Below are positions 1-9,247 of a DNA stretch of 13,604 bases, in pieces (the stretch's first letter is position 1; each line of letters opens with the position of its first letter). Location of the stretch: positions 1 to 13,604 of the forward strand of contig JAJZLX010000657.1 of the NCBI GenBank assembly GCA_021850555.1, read 5' to 3'. A model generated the notes under the pieces. That model ran no database searches and was not told the DNA's origin. It saw nothing but the letters and a program-made list of their open reading frames with translations. The DNA comes from Pseudomonadota bacterium. Its GTDB lineage: Bacteria; Pseudomonadota; Gammaproteobacteria; Steroidobacterales; Steroidobacteraceae. Both the position numbers and the translations under genes were made by a program.

Positions 1-156
1 GAACTGCTTGAGCTCCGGCAGATCCGCCCGCGGCAGAGCCATCGGCGTGCTCGAGGAGCACAGGTTGATGACGAACGGGCCCGCCTCGGCAGCGGGCTCT
101 TCCGGGGAACCTGCGCCGGCATCCGCCTTGTGCGCCAGATTTTCCGCTGGTGTCAT
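1..156 (-). CDS. Partial gene, N-terminal 52 residues of a possible SPOR-family-like protein
   Basis: An open frame starts at ATG 156-154 and runs off the left edge, so only 52 residues are visible. The first 25 or so residues are Ala/Glu/Gly/Pro-rich and look disordered. They lead into FVINLCSSSTPMAL and then ADLPELKQF. From memory, this kind of segment opens a family of proteobacterial proteins with SPOR-like or repeat domains. No signal peptide or membrane segment is seen in the visible part, and the function is not established. The start is preceded by a GAG-rich stretch (177-168) about 11 nt away, a weak ribosome-binding site. The gene's main interest is its leader: a cyclic-di-GMP-I riboswitch lies on the same strand 84 nt upstream, so expression should respond to cyclic-di-GMP. 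The family call is tentative; the reading frame and start are fairly secure. Confidence 0.6.
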   Translation of the reverse strand, partial: MTPAENLAHKADAGAGSPEEPAAEAGPFVINLCSSSTPMALPRADLPELKQF

Positions 157-167
157 GTTGGTACAGA

Positions 168-220
168 CTCTCGCTCGTTGACCCTGGGCGGGGCGCCGGC
201 ATGAGGTGGGAGCGAGCGAG
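168..220 (-). promoter_or_regulatory. Possible riboswitch expression platform (sequestration of the ribosome-binding region)
   Basis: On the minus strand, CTCGCTCG (220-213) is the exact reverse complement of CGAGCGAG (177-170). The latter sits in the only purine-rich stretch before the ATG at 156. Pairing would give an 8-bp stem that hides the ribosome-binding region, with the CTCGCTCG strand lying between the upstream aptamer and the start codon. The complementarity is seen directly. That it is the ligand-controlled switch is inference; no run of T typical of transcriptional control is present. Confidence 0.4.
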
Positions 221-234
221 CGCGCCTGGCGCGC
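220..234 (-). repeat. GC inverted repeat between aptamer and start codon
   Basis: GCGCGCC and GGCGCGC form a perfect 7-bp dyad around one base, which as RNA would be a 6-bp stem with a CAG loop. It lies directly after the riboswitch aptamer and directly before the CTCGCTCG anti-ribosome-site strand. It could take part in switching between structures. No T-run follows, so it is unlikely to be an intrinsic terminator. Confidence 0.4.
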
Positions 235-239
235 GATCG

Positions 240-320
240 TGGCGGCCCCGCCGTCATGGGAATCGTCCCGAAGACCGGTGGCTTTGCGTCCCCGCCTTTC
301 GACGGGTTTGCCTTTGTCAC
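240..320 (-). promoter_or_regulatory. Cyclic-di-GMP-I (GEMM-I) riboswitch aptamer
   Basis: The minus strand carries the hallmark series of the class I cyclic-di-GMP aptamer in the right order. GGCAAACC (312-305) comes first. A stem-loop CCCGTC-GAAA-GGCGGG (306-291) follows, with the GNRA tetraloop that docks onto P3. Next is the highly conserved GGGACGCAAAGCC (292-280). The second arm has CCG(G)TC (278-273) pairing with GACGG (255-251), and its tip has GGGA (269-266) pairing with TCCC (261-258), followed by the usual CATGA. It ends with the GGCGGGGCCGCC segment (252-241), which corresponds to the conserved 3' strand. Known members bind cyclic-di-GMP and control motility, pilus and surface genes. 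Here it lies in the leader of the minus-strand gene at 1-156. Exact ends are approximate. Confidence 0.92.
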
Positions 321-356
321 TGACGCAAAGTGTCAGCGGGCTGACTCAGAGTGTCA
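316..356. promoter_or_regulatory. Phased TGAC/GTCA half-sites overlapping the riboswitch promoter (candidate operator)
   Basis: Two related 15-bp dyads, TGACGCAAAGTGTCA (321-335) and TGACTCAGAGTGTCA (342-356), are exactly 21 bp apart, or two helical turns. The half-sites TGAC/GTCA begin at 321, 332, 342 and 353, and an extra GTCA lies at 316. Between the two dyads, GTCAGC-GG-GCTGAC (332-345) is itself a perfect dyad of the form GTCA-N6-TGAC. The array covers the -35, -10 and start of the putative promoter. The binding protein is unknown; the GTCA-N6-TGAC form resembles FleQ boxes. Confidence 0.5.
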
Positions 357-357
357 A
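329..357 (-). promoter_or_regulatory. Putative sigma-70-type promoter for the riboswitch transcript
   Basis: A perfect TTGACA -35 element (357-352) is followed after 17 bases by GACACT (334-329). GACACT matches TATAAT only at three positions, but these include the second A and the final T. Transcription would start near 322, just before the first conserved riboswitch nucleotides, which supports the placement. The poor -10 suggests help from an activator. Confidence 0.5.
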
Positions 358-484: not shown

Positions 485-2173
485 TCAGGCAAGGATGCCG
501 GGCAGGTCGAGCCCGTGGCGGCGCGCGCAATCGAGCGCCTCCGGGTAGCCGGCATCGGCGTGGCGCATCACGCCGCTCGCCGGGTCGTTCCACAGCACGC
601 GCCCGATCCGTCGGGCCGCCTCCGGCGTGCCGTCGCACACGATGACCAGGCCGGCGTGTTGCGAGAAGCCCATGCCGACACCGCCGCCATGGTGGAACGA
701 GACCCAGGTCGCCCCCGAAGCGGTATTCAACAGTGCGTTGAGCAGCGGCCAGTCGGACACCGCGTCCGAGCCGTCGCGCATCGCCTCGGTCTCGCGGTTC
801 GGCGAGGCGACCGAGCCCGAGTCGAGATGATCGCGTCCGATCACCACGGGAGCCTTGAGCTCCCCGCGCGCGACCATCTCGTTGAACGCGAGCCCCAGGC
901 GGTGCCGGTCCCCGAGGCCGACCCAACAGATGCGCGCCGGCAGCCCCTGGAAGCGGATCCGCTCGCGTGCCATGTCGAGCCAGTGGTGCAGATGCGCGTC
1001 GTTCGGCAGCAGCTCCTTGACCTTGGCGTCGGTCTTGTAGATGTCTTGCGGGTCGCCCGACAGCGCCGCCCAGCGAAACGGGCCCACGCCGCGGCAGAAC
1101 AGCGGCCGGATGTAGGCGGGCACGAAGCCGGGGAAGTCGAAGGCGCCCTTCACACCCTCCTCCAGCGCCATCTGCCGGATGTTGTTGCCGTAGTCCACGG
1201 TGGGCACGCCGGCCCGGTGGAAGTCCAGCATCGAGCGCACATGCACGGCCATCGAGGCCCGGGCTGCCTTGCTGACGGCCGCCGGATCGCGCTCGCGCAT
1301 CTCGAGCCAGTGCTCGACCGTCCAGCCGGCCGGCAGATAGCCGTTCACCGGATCGTGGGCCGAGGTCTGGTCCGTGAGCAGGCTCGGGCGCACCCCGCGC
1401 CGGAAGATCTCGGGCAGCAGCTCGGCTGCGTTGCCGAGCAGGCCCACGGAGGCCGGCCTGCCCTGCGCGCCGGCCCGCTGCACGATCTCGAGCGCCTCGT
1501 CCAGGCTCTCGGTGGCGTGATCGAGGTAGCCCGAGCGCAGCCGCATGTCGATGCGCGAGCGCTGACACTCTATGGCGAGGCAGGAGAGACCCGCCATCAC
1601 CGCCGCGAGCGGCTGCGCGCCGCCCATGCCGCCCAAGCCCGCCGTCAGCAGCCAGCGCCCTCTCGTGTCGCCTCCGTAGTGGCGGCGGCCCATCTCCGCA
1701 AAGGTCTCGTAGGTGCCCTGCACGATGCCCTGGCTGCCGATGTAGATCCACGAGCCCGCCGTCATCTGGCCGAACATCATCAGCCCCTTGCGGTCGAGCT
1801 CGTTGAAGTGCTCCCAGGTCGCCCAGCGCGGCACCAGGTTGGAGTTGGCGATCAGCACACGCGGGGCATCCTCGTGGGTCCTGAAGACCCCCACGGGCTT
1901 GCCCGACTGGATGAGCAGCGTCTGATCGGCTTCGAGCCGCCGCAGTGTCGCGACGATGATGTCGTAGCTCTCCCAGTCGCGCGCCGCGCGGCCGATCCCC
2001 CCGTACACCACCAGCTCCGAGGGTCGCTCGCCGACCTCGGGGTCCAGGTTGTTCATCAGCATGCGAAGCGGCGCCTCGGTGAGCCAGCTCCTGGCGGTGC
2101 GCTGCGCTCCGGTGGGCGCGCGAATGACCCGGGTGGTATCGATGCGGGTTCGTTGGGCGGCGGGTGATGTCAT
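485..2173 (-). CDS. hutU: Urocanate hydratase (urocanase)
   Basis: This cytosolic NAD+-dependent enzyme (EC 4.2.1.49) hydrates urocanate to 4-imidazolone-5-propionate, step two of histidine degradation. The 562-residue product has the usual length. Landmarks are [15 protein letters not shown] near residue 57, [13 protein letters not shown] (137-149), the glycine-rich [11 protein letters not shown] near 179, and [18 protein letters not shown] near 267. The urocanase signature [10 protein letters not shown] (408-417) includes the active-site Cys416, and [15 protein letters not shown] lies near the C-terminus. The ATG at 2173 was chosen over an upstream in-frame start at 2209 because GAGGAA (2186-2181) sits 7 nt before it and the upstream start would lie inside hutG. 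The gene is last in hutI-hutH-hutG-hutU, 11 bp after hutG, whose stop overlaps this ribosome-binding site. The assignment is secure. Confidence 0.97.
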
Positions 2174-2184
2174 GGAAGCATTCC

Positions 2185-2997
2185 TCAGGAGCTTGCGAAA
2201 TCGACACACGCGCGCAGCACGCTCTCGAGCAGCGCACGCAGAGGTCCCGCCCGGTCCGGGTCGTAGGGCGGCGGCCAGTTGCCGCTATCGGGCACGGGCG
2301 GCTCGTCGAGGTATCCGCGGCAGGCGAGCTCCATCTGCACGGCGTGGACACCGTGCGACGGGTTGCCGTAGCGGCGCGTCGTCCAGCCTCCGACAAAGCG
2401 ACCGTCGGTAACGCGGGTGAAGCGCGGATCCTCGCACGCGGCCTCGATCCTTCGGGCGAGCAGCGGATCACAGCTCGCCCCCCGGTAAGTGCCGATGTTG
2501 AGGTTTGGCAGCTCGCCCTCGAACAGCCTCGGCACGCGCGAGCGGATGCTGTGCGCGTCGTAAAGCACGACACGCGGGTGCTTCTCCCTGATGCGCCGCA
2601 CTTGCGCCAGGAGTGCCGCATGATACGGCTCGTGCCAGCGCGCCCGCCGGTCGGCAATGGCGGCTGCGTCGGGCTCCCGGCCCGGGCGATAGAGCGGCTC
2701 GCCGTCGAATGTCGTCAGCGGGCACAGGTCAGTGGTGGCCTGCCCGGGATAGAGGGACGCTCCGGAGGGGTCGCGATTGACGTCGATGACCGTGCGCGAG
2801 AGGTTGGTGCGAACCGTCGTCGCTCCCAGCTCGCGGGCCATGTCGTAGAGCCGATGCACCCACCAGTCCGCATCCTTGCGCGCGAGCCACGGCGAGAGCA
2901 GGCATGGCTCGAGCTGCGCAGGGATGTCGGTGCCGGTATGCGGAAAGCTGACGATGAGCGGGGCGCCGCCGCGATGGATCTCGAGCCAGTCGCTCAT
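2185..2997 (-). CDS. hutG: N-formylglutamate deformylase (amidohydrolase)
   Basis: HutG of the FGase family (EC 3.5.1.68) hydrolyses N-formyl-L-glutamate to glutamate and formate, the last step of the five-step histidine pathway. The 270 residues fit the family. Visible conserved blocks are [12 protein letters not shown] (15-26, with His20), KDADWW (41-46), [15 protein letters not shown] (65-79), [17 protein letters not shown] (145-161), and [27 protein letters not shown] (199-225). The His, Asp and Glu residues in these blocks are the likely metal and substrate ligands. It is not the arginase-like formiminoglutamase also named HutG, because the metal motifs of that family are absent. The ATG overlaps the hutH stop in an ATGA (2997-2994), so translation is probably coupled. 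It works with HutF, which supplies the formylglutamate. Confidence 0.95.
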
Positions 2998-7947: not shown

Positions 7948-9054
7948 CTACAGGTCCAGCGACAACTGCGGGCTTTGGGCAGGCGGCGGCCTGAATGACT
8001 GGACGTCGAGGCCGCCCGCTCGCCGGGTGTCGAGACCGAGCCGCCGGCAGGCGATGTGGAAACGGTTGCGCAGCAGTTGCGCGAACGGTCCGCAGCCGCG
8101 CATGCGGGAGCCGAAGCGCGGATCGTTCTCCCTCCCATCGCGCATCTGCCGCACCAGCGACATCACGTGCTCCGCGCGGTCGGGATAGTGGGCGGCCAGC
8201 CATTCCCGGAAAAGAGCCTTCACCTCGTAGGGCAGACGCAGCACGATGTAGGTGGCCCAGCGGGCCCCGGCATCCGCGGCGGCCTCGAGGATGCTTTCCA
8301 TCTCATGGTCGGTGAGCGCGGGGATCACAGGCGCCACGAGCACGCCGCTCGGAACACCGGCCTCGCTCAGGGCGCGCACAGCCTCGAGTCGGGCGCGGGG
8401 CGAGGCGGCCTGCGGCTCCATGCGCCGCTTCAACTCAGGATCCAGCGTGGTGATGCTGATGCCGACGCTCACCAGGTTCTCGCGCGCCAGCCGCGTTAGC
8501 AAATCGAGATCGCGCAGCACCAGAGCGCCCTTGGTGATGATGGTGAGCGGATGGCGGCAGCGGGCGAGCACCTCGAGGATGTCGCGCGTGACGCGCATGC
8601 GTCGCTCGATCGGCTGGTACGGATCGGTGTTTGATCCCATGTTGATCGGCTTGCACACATAGCCGGGGCGAGACAGCTCCCGCTCCAGCAATTTGGCCGC
8701 GTCCAGCTTGTAGAACAGCTTCGTCTCGAAATCCAGCCCTGAGGAAAGACCAACATAACCATGACTCGGCCTCGCGTAGCAGTAGCAGCACGCATGCGAG
8801 CATCCCCTGTAGGGATTGATCGACTGCTCGAAGGGAATGTCGGGCGAGTCATTGGTGCTGATGACGCTGCGGGCACGGTCGGGCTCGATGGAAACGGGCG
8901 GGGCGTCGGGCGGCTCCTGCTGGTACCAGCCGTCGTCGAGGGCTTCCCGCCTGCGCCGCTCGAATCGGCCCGCGGGGTTCGAGAGCGCCCCATGGCCCTT
9001 CAGAGGCTTCCGATTCGATTTGTCGCCCGCTGCCGCCATCGGATGACTGTACAT
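7948..9054 (-). CDS. PA0069/Rv2578c-family radical SAM protein
   Basis: This is a radical S-adenosylmethionine protein of unknown substrate. With the chosen start it has 368 residues. The iron-sulphur motif Cx3CxxC is seen in NPYRGCSHACCYCYARPSHGY (Cys85, Cys89, Cys92). It is followed by MGSNTDPYQPIERRMRVTRDIL (139-160), ITKGALVLRDLDLL and VSVGISITTLD, which are typical of the family (distantly like spore photoproduct lyase). The C-terminal part has DPRFGSRMRGCGPFAQLL, another family block. The start is uncertain: ATG 9054, ATG 9039 and TTG 9099 are all in frame and none has a good ribosome-binding site. Conservation appears to begin near KPLKGHGAL (17-25), so either ATG fits. No functional link to hut or cob is evident. 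Confidence 0.88.
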   Translation of the reverse strand: MYSHPMAAAGDKSNRKPLKGHGALSNPAGRFERRRREALDDGWYQQEPPDAPPVSIEPDRARSVISTNDSPDIPFEQSINPYRGCSHACCYCYARPSHGYVGLSSGLDFETKLFYKLDAAKLLERELSRPGYVCKPINMGSNTDPYQPIERRMRVTRDILEVLARCRHPLTIITKGALVLRDLDLLTRLARENLVSVGISITTLDPELKRRMEPQAASPRARLEAVRALSEAGVPSGVLVAPVIPALTDHEMESILEAAADAGARWATYIVLRLPYEVKALFREWLAAHYPDRAEHVMSLVRQMRDGRENDPRFGSRMRGCGPFAQLLRNRFHIACRRLGLDTRRAGGLDVQSFRPPPAQSPQLSLDL

Positions 9055-9247
9055 CTGTCCAGGCTTGTCGTAAAGCGGCCCGAACCTGACCCCGGTCAAC
9101 CGTGCGCCCGGCCGCGACTGGACGGCGGGGGGTTGGCGCTGCCACTCTTACGGCCCCTCGACGAGCAGCTGTTTCAACCGACCATGGCGACCTGCGCGCC
9201 TGCGGCGCGATCGGTCAATGGTCCCCAACCGTGAAAATCGAAGAGCG

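Follow-up and report, generated by a model that had tools for sequence, protein, structure and literature searches.

The stretch of DNA considered here, hereafter referred to as the window (13,604 nucleotides [nt], positions 1 to 13,604 of contig JAJZLX010000657.1 of assembly GCA_021850555.1), originates from a gammaproteobacterium of the Steroidobacteraceae and raises the question of which ligand is sensed by a GEMM-I-like aptamer on its minus strand (237-321), and which gene is under its control. The locus very probably represents a canonical class I riboswitch for cyclic di-GMP (c-di-GMP), which leads its own short transcription unit and controls a gene coding for a SPOR-like protein. The sensor itself is of an ordinary, known type; what is new is that, in this lineage, c-di-GMP-I control extends to a conserved, as yet unnamed SPOR-like gene.

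A cmscan search of the whole window returned a single RNA match at gathering level, namely the element at 237-321 (minus strand), which was assigned to RF03167 (c-di-GMP-I-GGC) over the full length of the model (1-80 of 80) with 71.2 bits (gathering score, 59) and an E-value of 1.6e-15; a scan of positions 100-480 alone placed it identically. The first-pass annotation had recognized the hallmark blocks of GEMM-I on the minus strand, all of which are present in the aligned sequence, and its span of 240-320 denotes the right element with ends that are off by 1-3 bases. Its assignment to the c-di-GMP-I class is borne out by this significant match and by canonical pocket bases, although the best-ranked Rfam label is that of a variant family. 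The scan keeps only the best-ranked member of a clan (for the window, one match from that clan with a lower score is omitted), and this ranking by E-value, with a score above gathering, is what speaks for a GGC riboswitch with altered ligand preference. Such an identity is nevertheless distinctly unlikely. In the printed alignments, the consensus around the pocket base reads GACGCGAAgC in RF03167 and GACGCAAAgC in RF01051, and the window reads GACGCAAAGC; it passes the gathering score of RF03167, but carries A instead of the consensus G. From our own reading of these two consensus lines and from the name of the family, we take this to be the base that defines the GGC type. All 56 aptamers read have A here; they comprise the window, 39 further loci, L077 and L078, and 14 additional aptamers of the genus, the 30 order-level aptamer loci (L004-L033) lying outside this reading of base 47. 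Moreover, the aptamer of the nearest genome (G001) is identical to that of the window and scores 74.2 bits with RF01051 (gathering score, 35) versus 71.2 bits with RF03167, so that the RF01051 threshold is passed via this identical copy, the window's own clan ranking listing RF03167 alone. Searches of 14 control genomes with both models gave no match to either family. Overlapping c-di-GMP-I models are described in the available part of PMC9943018 as recognizing the same RNAs, the choice being made by bit score, which leads to RF01051 for the window aptamer. Because of the A at the pocket base in all 56 aptamers and the higher RF01051 score of the identical G001 copy, the element is best classified as a canonical c-di-GMP-I riboswitch despite its Rfam label, and the GGC label was rejected on the pocket bases. 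If the alignment columns correspond to the Vc2 numbering as we presume, the window carries G, A, and C at the places of the Vc2 ligand contacts, with C at both candidate columns for position 92. These contacts are G20, A47, and C92 according to the accessible text of PMC4744006. The pocket columns are invariant across 36 aligned aptamers (the window and 35 orthologous ones), which also bears on an aptamer of the GEMM-Ib type for cyclic AMP-GMP: the fold would be the same, and the class includes such variants as far as the accessible part of PMC7266159 goes, but position 20 is G rather than A in all 36. A G20A exchange lets a c-di-GMP-I aptamer bind cyclic GMP-AMP, as stated in the accessible part of PMC7288161. 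With G at position 20 instead of the A of GEMM-Ib, the cyclic AMP-GMP reading was rejected on the pocket bases as well and retains next to no probability. As a separate observation, the Rfam clan ranking gives RF03167 not only to the window, but also to L099, L103, and L110, all with A at the consensus-G base.

The linkage between the aptamer and the gene following it is conserved among related bacteria. Among 45 named loci encoding the protein, 39 of the 40 scanned first carry the aptamer ahead of the gene, as do L077 and L078; in the single miss (L063), it is interrupted by Ns. As L050, L053, and L065 begin too near to the gene to contain the leader, the covariance model thus detects the riboswitch in 41 of 42 leaders. 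Within the genus of G001 (41 genomes), RF01051 matches 39 genomes and the protein profile 38, and each of the 33 orthologues with a located N-terminus has a same-strand aptamer lying 82-138 nt upstream of where the profile match begins. The sole listed aptamer is that of this gene in 16 of 17 genus genomes with just one aptamer (exception, G600), a count to be read with the incompleteness of many of these genomes and with strict search filters, by which weak matches are lost. A profile match was obtained in 31 of the 60 genomes of the family, 25 of these with an aptamer 75-316 nt upstream. Only 17 of 369 genomes of the class match the profile, those outside the family weakly (E-values of 1e-13 or worse), and no riboswitch was found in the DNA of these 15 class-level loci (L081-L095, about 3 kb each). 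In the order as a whole, RF01051 is widespread, with matches in 145 of 196 genomes.

The regulated gene is represented in the window by its 5' part (1-156, minus strand): as proposed previously, it begins in the minus-strand frame, and the ATG at 156-154 opens a reading frame of 52 codons up to the window edge. Its orthologue in G001 comprises 478 amino acids and gives no Pfam match at E-values up to 1 or up to 10. Among the family members, 18 of 21 match PF05036 (SPOR) at E-values up to 10, the best value being 3.6e-4, and a more distant riboswitch-bearing relative (L080) reaches 33.3 bits with a Pfam cut-off of 21; these scans covered the orthologues, the window containing only 52 residues of the protein. 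When PDB sequences were searched with the family profile, no match had an E-value below 2. Low-confidence structure models suggest the presence of two SPOR-like folds in the orthologue. The protein family is large, with 2336 proteins at E-values of 0.001 or below among 7994 candidates scored. The claim that the gene is not a classical flagellar, pilus, or cyclase gene holds; it encodes an uncharacterized protein with resemblance to SPOR proteins, which bind the cell wall.

The leader appears to contain a promoter of its own, consisting of a -35-like TTGACA (352-357, minus strand) and a -10-like GACACT (329-334) 17 nt away. The corresponding pattern, TTGACN-(16 or 17 nt)-NANACT, was picked after inspection of the leaders; it is present in 40 of 40 leaders, ending 5-10 nt before the aptamer, compared with 0.02 leaders expected from mononucleotide shuffles. 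A generic sigma-70 consensus scan of positions 100-480 found no promoter. The promoter-like site would place the RNA start at or just before the aptamer, which would then form the very start of the RNA, separate from the upstream hut genes. As judged from these comparisons, the promoter pattern, the aptamer, and the gene form a conserved unit across related, uncultured bacteria. Directly after the aptamer core, a G+C-rich hairpin is predicted (217-239, minus strand), which is not followed by a T run; four consecutive T occur within 105 nt downstream in 3 of the 40 leaders, and a terminator scan of 100-480 gave no terminator-like site. Because no intrinsic terminator was found, control most likely takes place at translation initiation or by Rho. 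The distance from the aptamer to the ATG is 80 nt, with a putative, weak Shine-Dalgarno-like GAGAG (168-172, minus strand) 11 nt before the ATG. A three-way switch between GGCGGGGC in the aptamer (245-252), GCCCCGCC in the leader (187-194), and the start region was appealing by eye in the window, where the first duplex gave a p value of 0.03, but found no support across the set. A helix search in two leader alignments gave no clear result.

Control of the gene mainly as part of the upstream hut operon for histidine use is very improbable: hutU (urocanase, identified by Pfam; 485-2209, minus strand) indeed lies on the same strand and ends 163 nt upstream of the aptamer, but was matched at only 19 of the 45 loci, as against the promoter pattern in all 40 leaders; it lies outside the conserved unit, and the hut operon was rejected as the regulatory unit for not being conserved. 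It is somewhat less far-fetched, if still unlikely, that a real aptamer fold resides in a leader whose switching is poor or has decayed in this lineage, leaving the gene effectively constitutive. The modeled start-site accessibility of the window is unchanged, its Shine-Dalgarno-like site is weak, and the available text of PMC4744006 provides a precedent in Vc1 of Vibrio cholerae, which binds weakly although the three contact bases are kept. On the other hand, the invariant pocket columns of the 36 aligned aptamers and the retention of the aptamer at all 33 located genus orthologues suggest selection. The case for a functional canonical riboswitch in front of a SPOR-like gene is weakened by several observations in addition to Vc1. 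Rfam's own ranking favors the GGC family, and among nine more distant hits of the protein family in the genus, five have an aptamer and four have none. Five gene-bearing genomes of the bacterial family (G201, G222, G210, G092, and G180) also lack an aptamer near the gene; in G217, the profile match begins near the contig end. When the aptamer fold was forced in 36 modeled leaders, which are related and hence not independent, the accessibility of the start site was lower by at least 0.1 in 14, higher in 3, and approximately flat in 19, including the window. Duplex tests with 200 shuffles each gave p values of 0.05 or below in 2 of 36 leaders when the aptamer 3' strand was paired with the leader and in 5 of 36 when the leader was paired with the Shine-Dalgarno region. 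Finally, the orthologue itself can be assigned to SPOR only weakly, and the structure models are of low confidence (predicted local distance difference test scores of 57.7 and 54.8).

A view on the other aptamers of the genus adds information on the kind of genes controlled by this class. Of 110 aptamers listed, 38 are linked to the gene family described here and 72 are not; 14 of the latter were chosen from five genomes (G620, G107, G103, G622, and G628), and all of them belong to the same class, the one in L100 being degenerate. In five of the sampled loci (L098, L102, L104, L106, and L109), the aptamer is followed by pilM, confirmed in each case by a match to Pfam PilM_2, as part of pilM operons. 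Another five precede genes for M23 peptidases, supported by Pfam in L101, L105, and L107 and by NCBIfam matches below the cut-offs of those models in L097 and L108. The remaining four precede Ig-like or lipoprotein-like genes, as indicated by Pfam He_PIG in L099 and L103, by weak matches in L110, and by reading only in L100. Like these sampled targets, the SPOR-like gene agrees with the envelope and surface functions known for the class. A side observation concerns L101 (G107:C18:38934-39017), located before an M23 gene, which reads AAGAGCAAACC and thus has A at the position of G20, a change associated with cyclic AMP-GMP sensing; in each of the other four M23 leaders read, this position is G.

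Taken together, a dedicated promoter (357-329, minus strand) would start the RNA at the aptamer, which would bind c-di-GMP via the G20/A47/C92 pocket, and the following 80-nt leader would set ribosome initiation on a gene whose product would have two SPOR-domain-like folds and no evident membrane anchor. That c-di-GMP is the ligand and that the promoter is used is inferred from the features given above. G001 carries 19 GGDEF matches. As to the direction of control, we lean slightly toward a lowering of expression by c-di-GMP; this lean comes from the modeling and is weak, the window itself giving no indication. A role of the protein in the cell envelope or the pilus machinery is probable and would agree with the finding that aptamers of this class also precede pilM, M23, and Ig-like genes in sister genomes. 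A more far-reaching and tentative proposal, which we regard as possible but rather doubtful, is that c-di-GMP, acting via a riboswitch of the genus that is the sole c-di-GMP-I element in many genomes, sets the level of an undescribed anchor-less tandem-SPOR protein and thereby couples the signal to cell-wall remodeling or type IV pilus assembly. In that case, the riboswitch regulon of the genus would be centered on the SPOR-like gene, and pilM, M23, and Ig-like genes would belong to it variably. The fixed association with the aptamer gives an uncharacterized protein family a first testable role in c-di-GMP signaling and suggests an involvement in cell-wall or pilus biology. In addition, it illustrates that ranking overlapping Rfam models by E-value can attach a variant-ligand label to aptamers with a canonical pocket. 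The first-pass annotation's suggestion of a possibly novel controlled function for the class is plausible but unproven. No description of the gene under c-di-GMP-I control was found in the literature searched (Steroidobacter or SPOR domain combined with c-di-GMP and riboswitch; most subscription papers lay outside the search), and the gene also fits the known envelope theme. Most of the GEMM regulon genes (114) in the set presented in the available part of PMC3766115 are reported to be of unknown function.

The surroundings of the unit vary between the related genomes. A GGDEF-EAL gene was detected by tblastn upstream on the same strand, within at most 3 kb, in 7 of the 45 loci (L055, L059, L070, L072, L073, L076, and L078), and Pfam confirms it in L055 and L072. 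In the clade of the window, this place is occupied by the hut genes, possibly as replacements of an older c-di-GMP-related neighbor. Further away, a radical SAM gene (7948-9099) lies between hutC and cobT; the same interval in G001 contains a transposase-like open reading frame (L003, 17854-18441), named by look only.

Compared with known systems, the window shares with the c-di-GMP-I (GEMM-I) riboswitches of RF01051 the fold, the G20/A47/C92 pocket, the GAAA-capped P2, and the position in a 5' leader, but differs in its unnamed, SPOR-like regulated gene and in that a terminator-type platform was not found. With RF03167, it has in common a match above gathering over the full model, differing by A for the consensus G at the pocket. 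The Vc1 element before gbpA of Vibrio cholerae, as described in the accessible text of PMC4744006, is a GEMM-I leader of the same kind with three conserved ligand contacts; the gene behind it is a different one. In contrast to known SPOR proteins (RlpA, DamX, DedD, and CwlC; PF05036), the regulated protein would contain two SPOR-like domains and long Ala/Pro-rich linkers with no evident membrane segment, yet these proteins show the best resemblance to the C-terminal domain of the structure model, and one of its riboswitch-bearing relatives lies above the Pfam cut-off for this domain.
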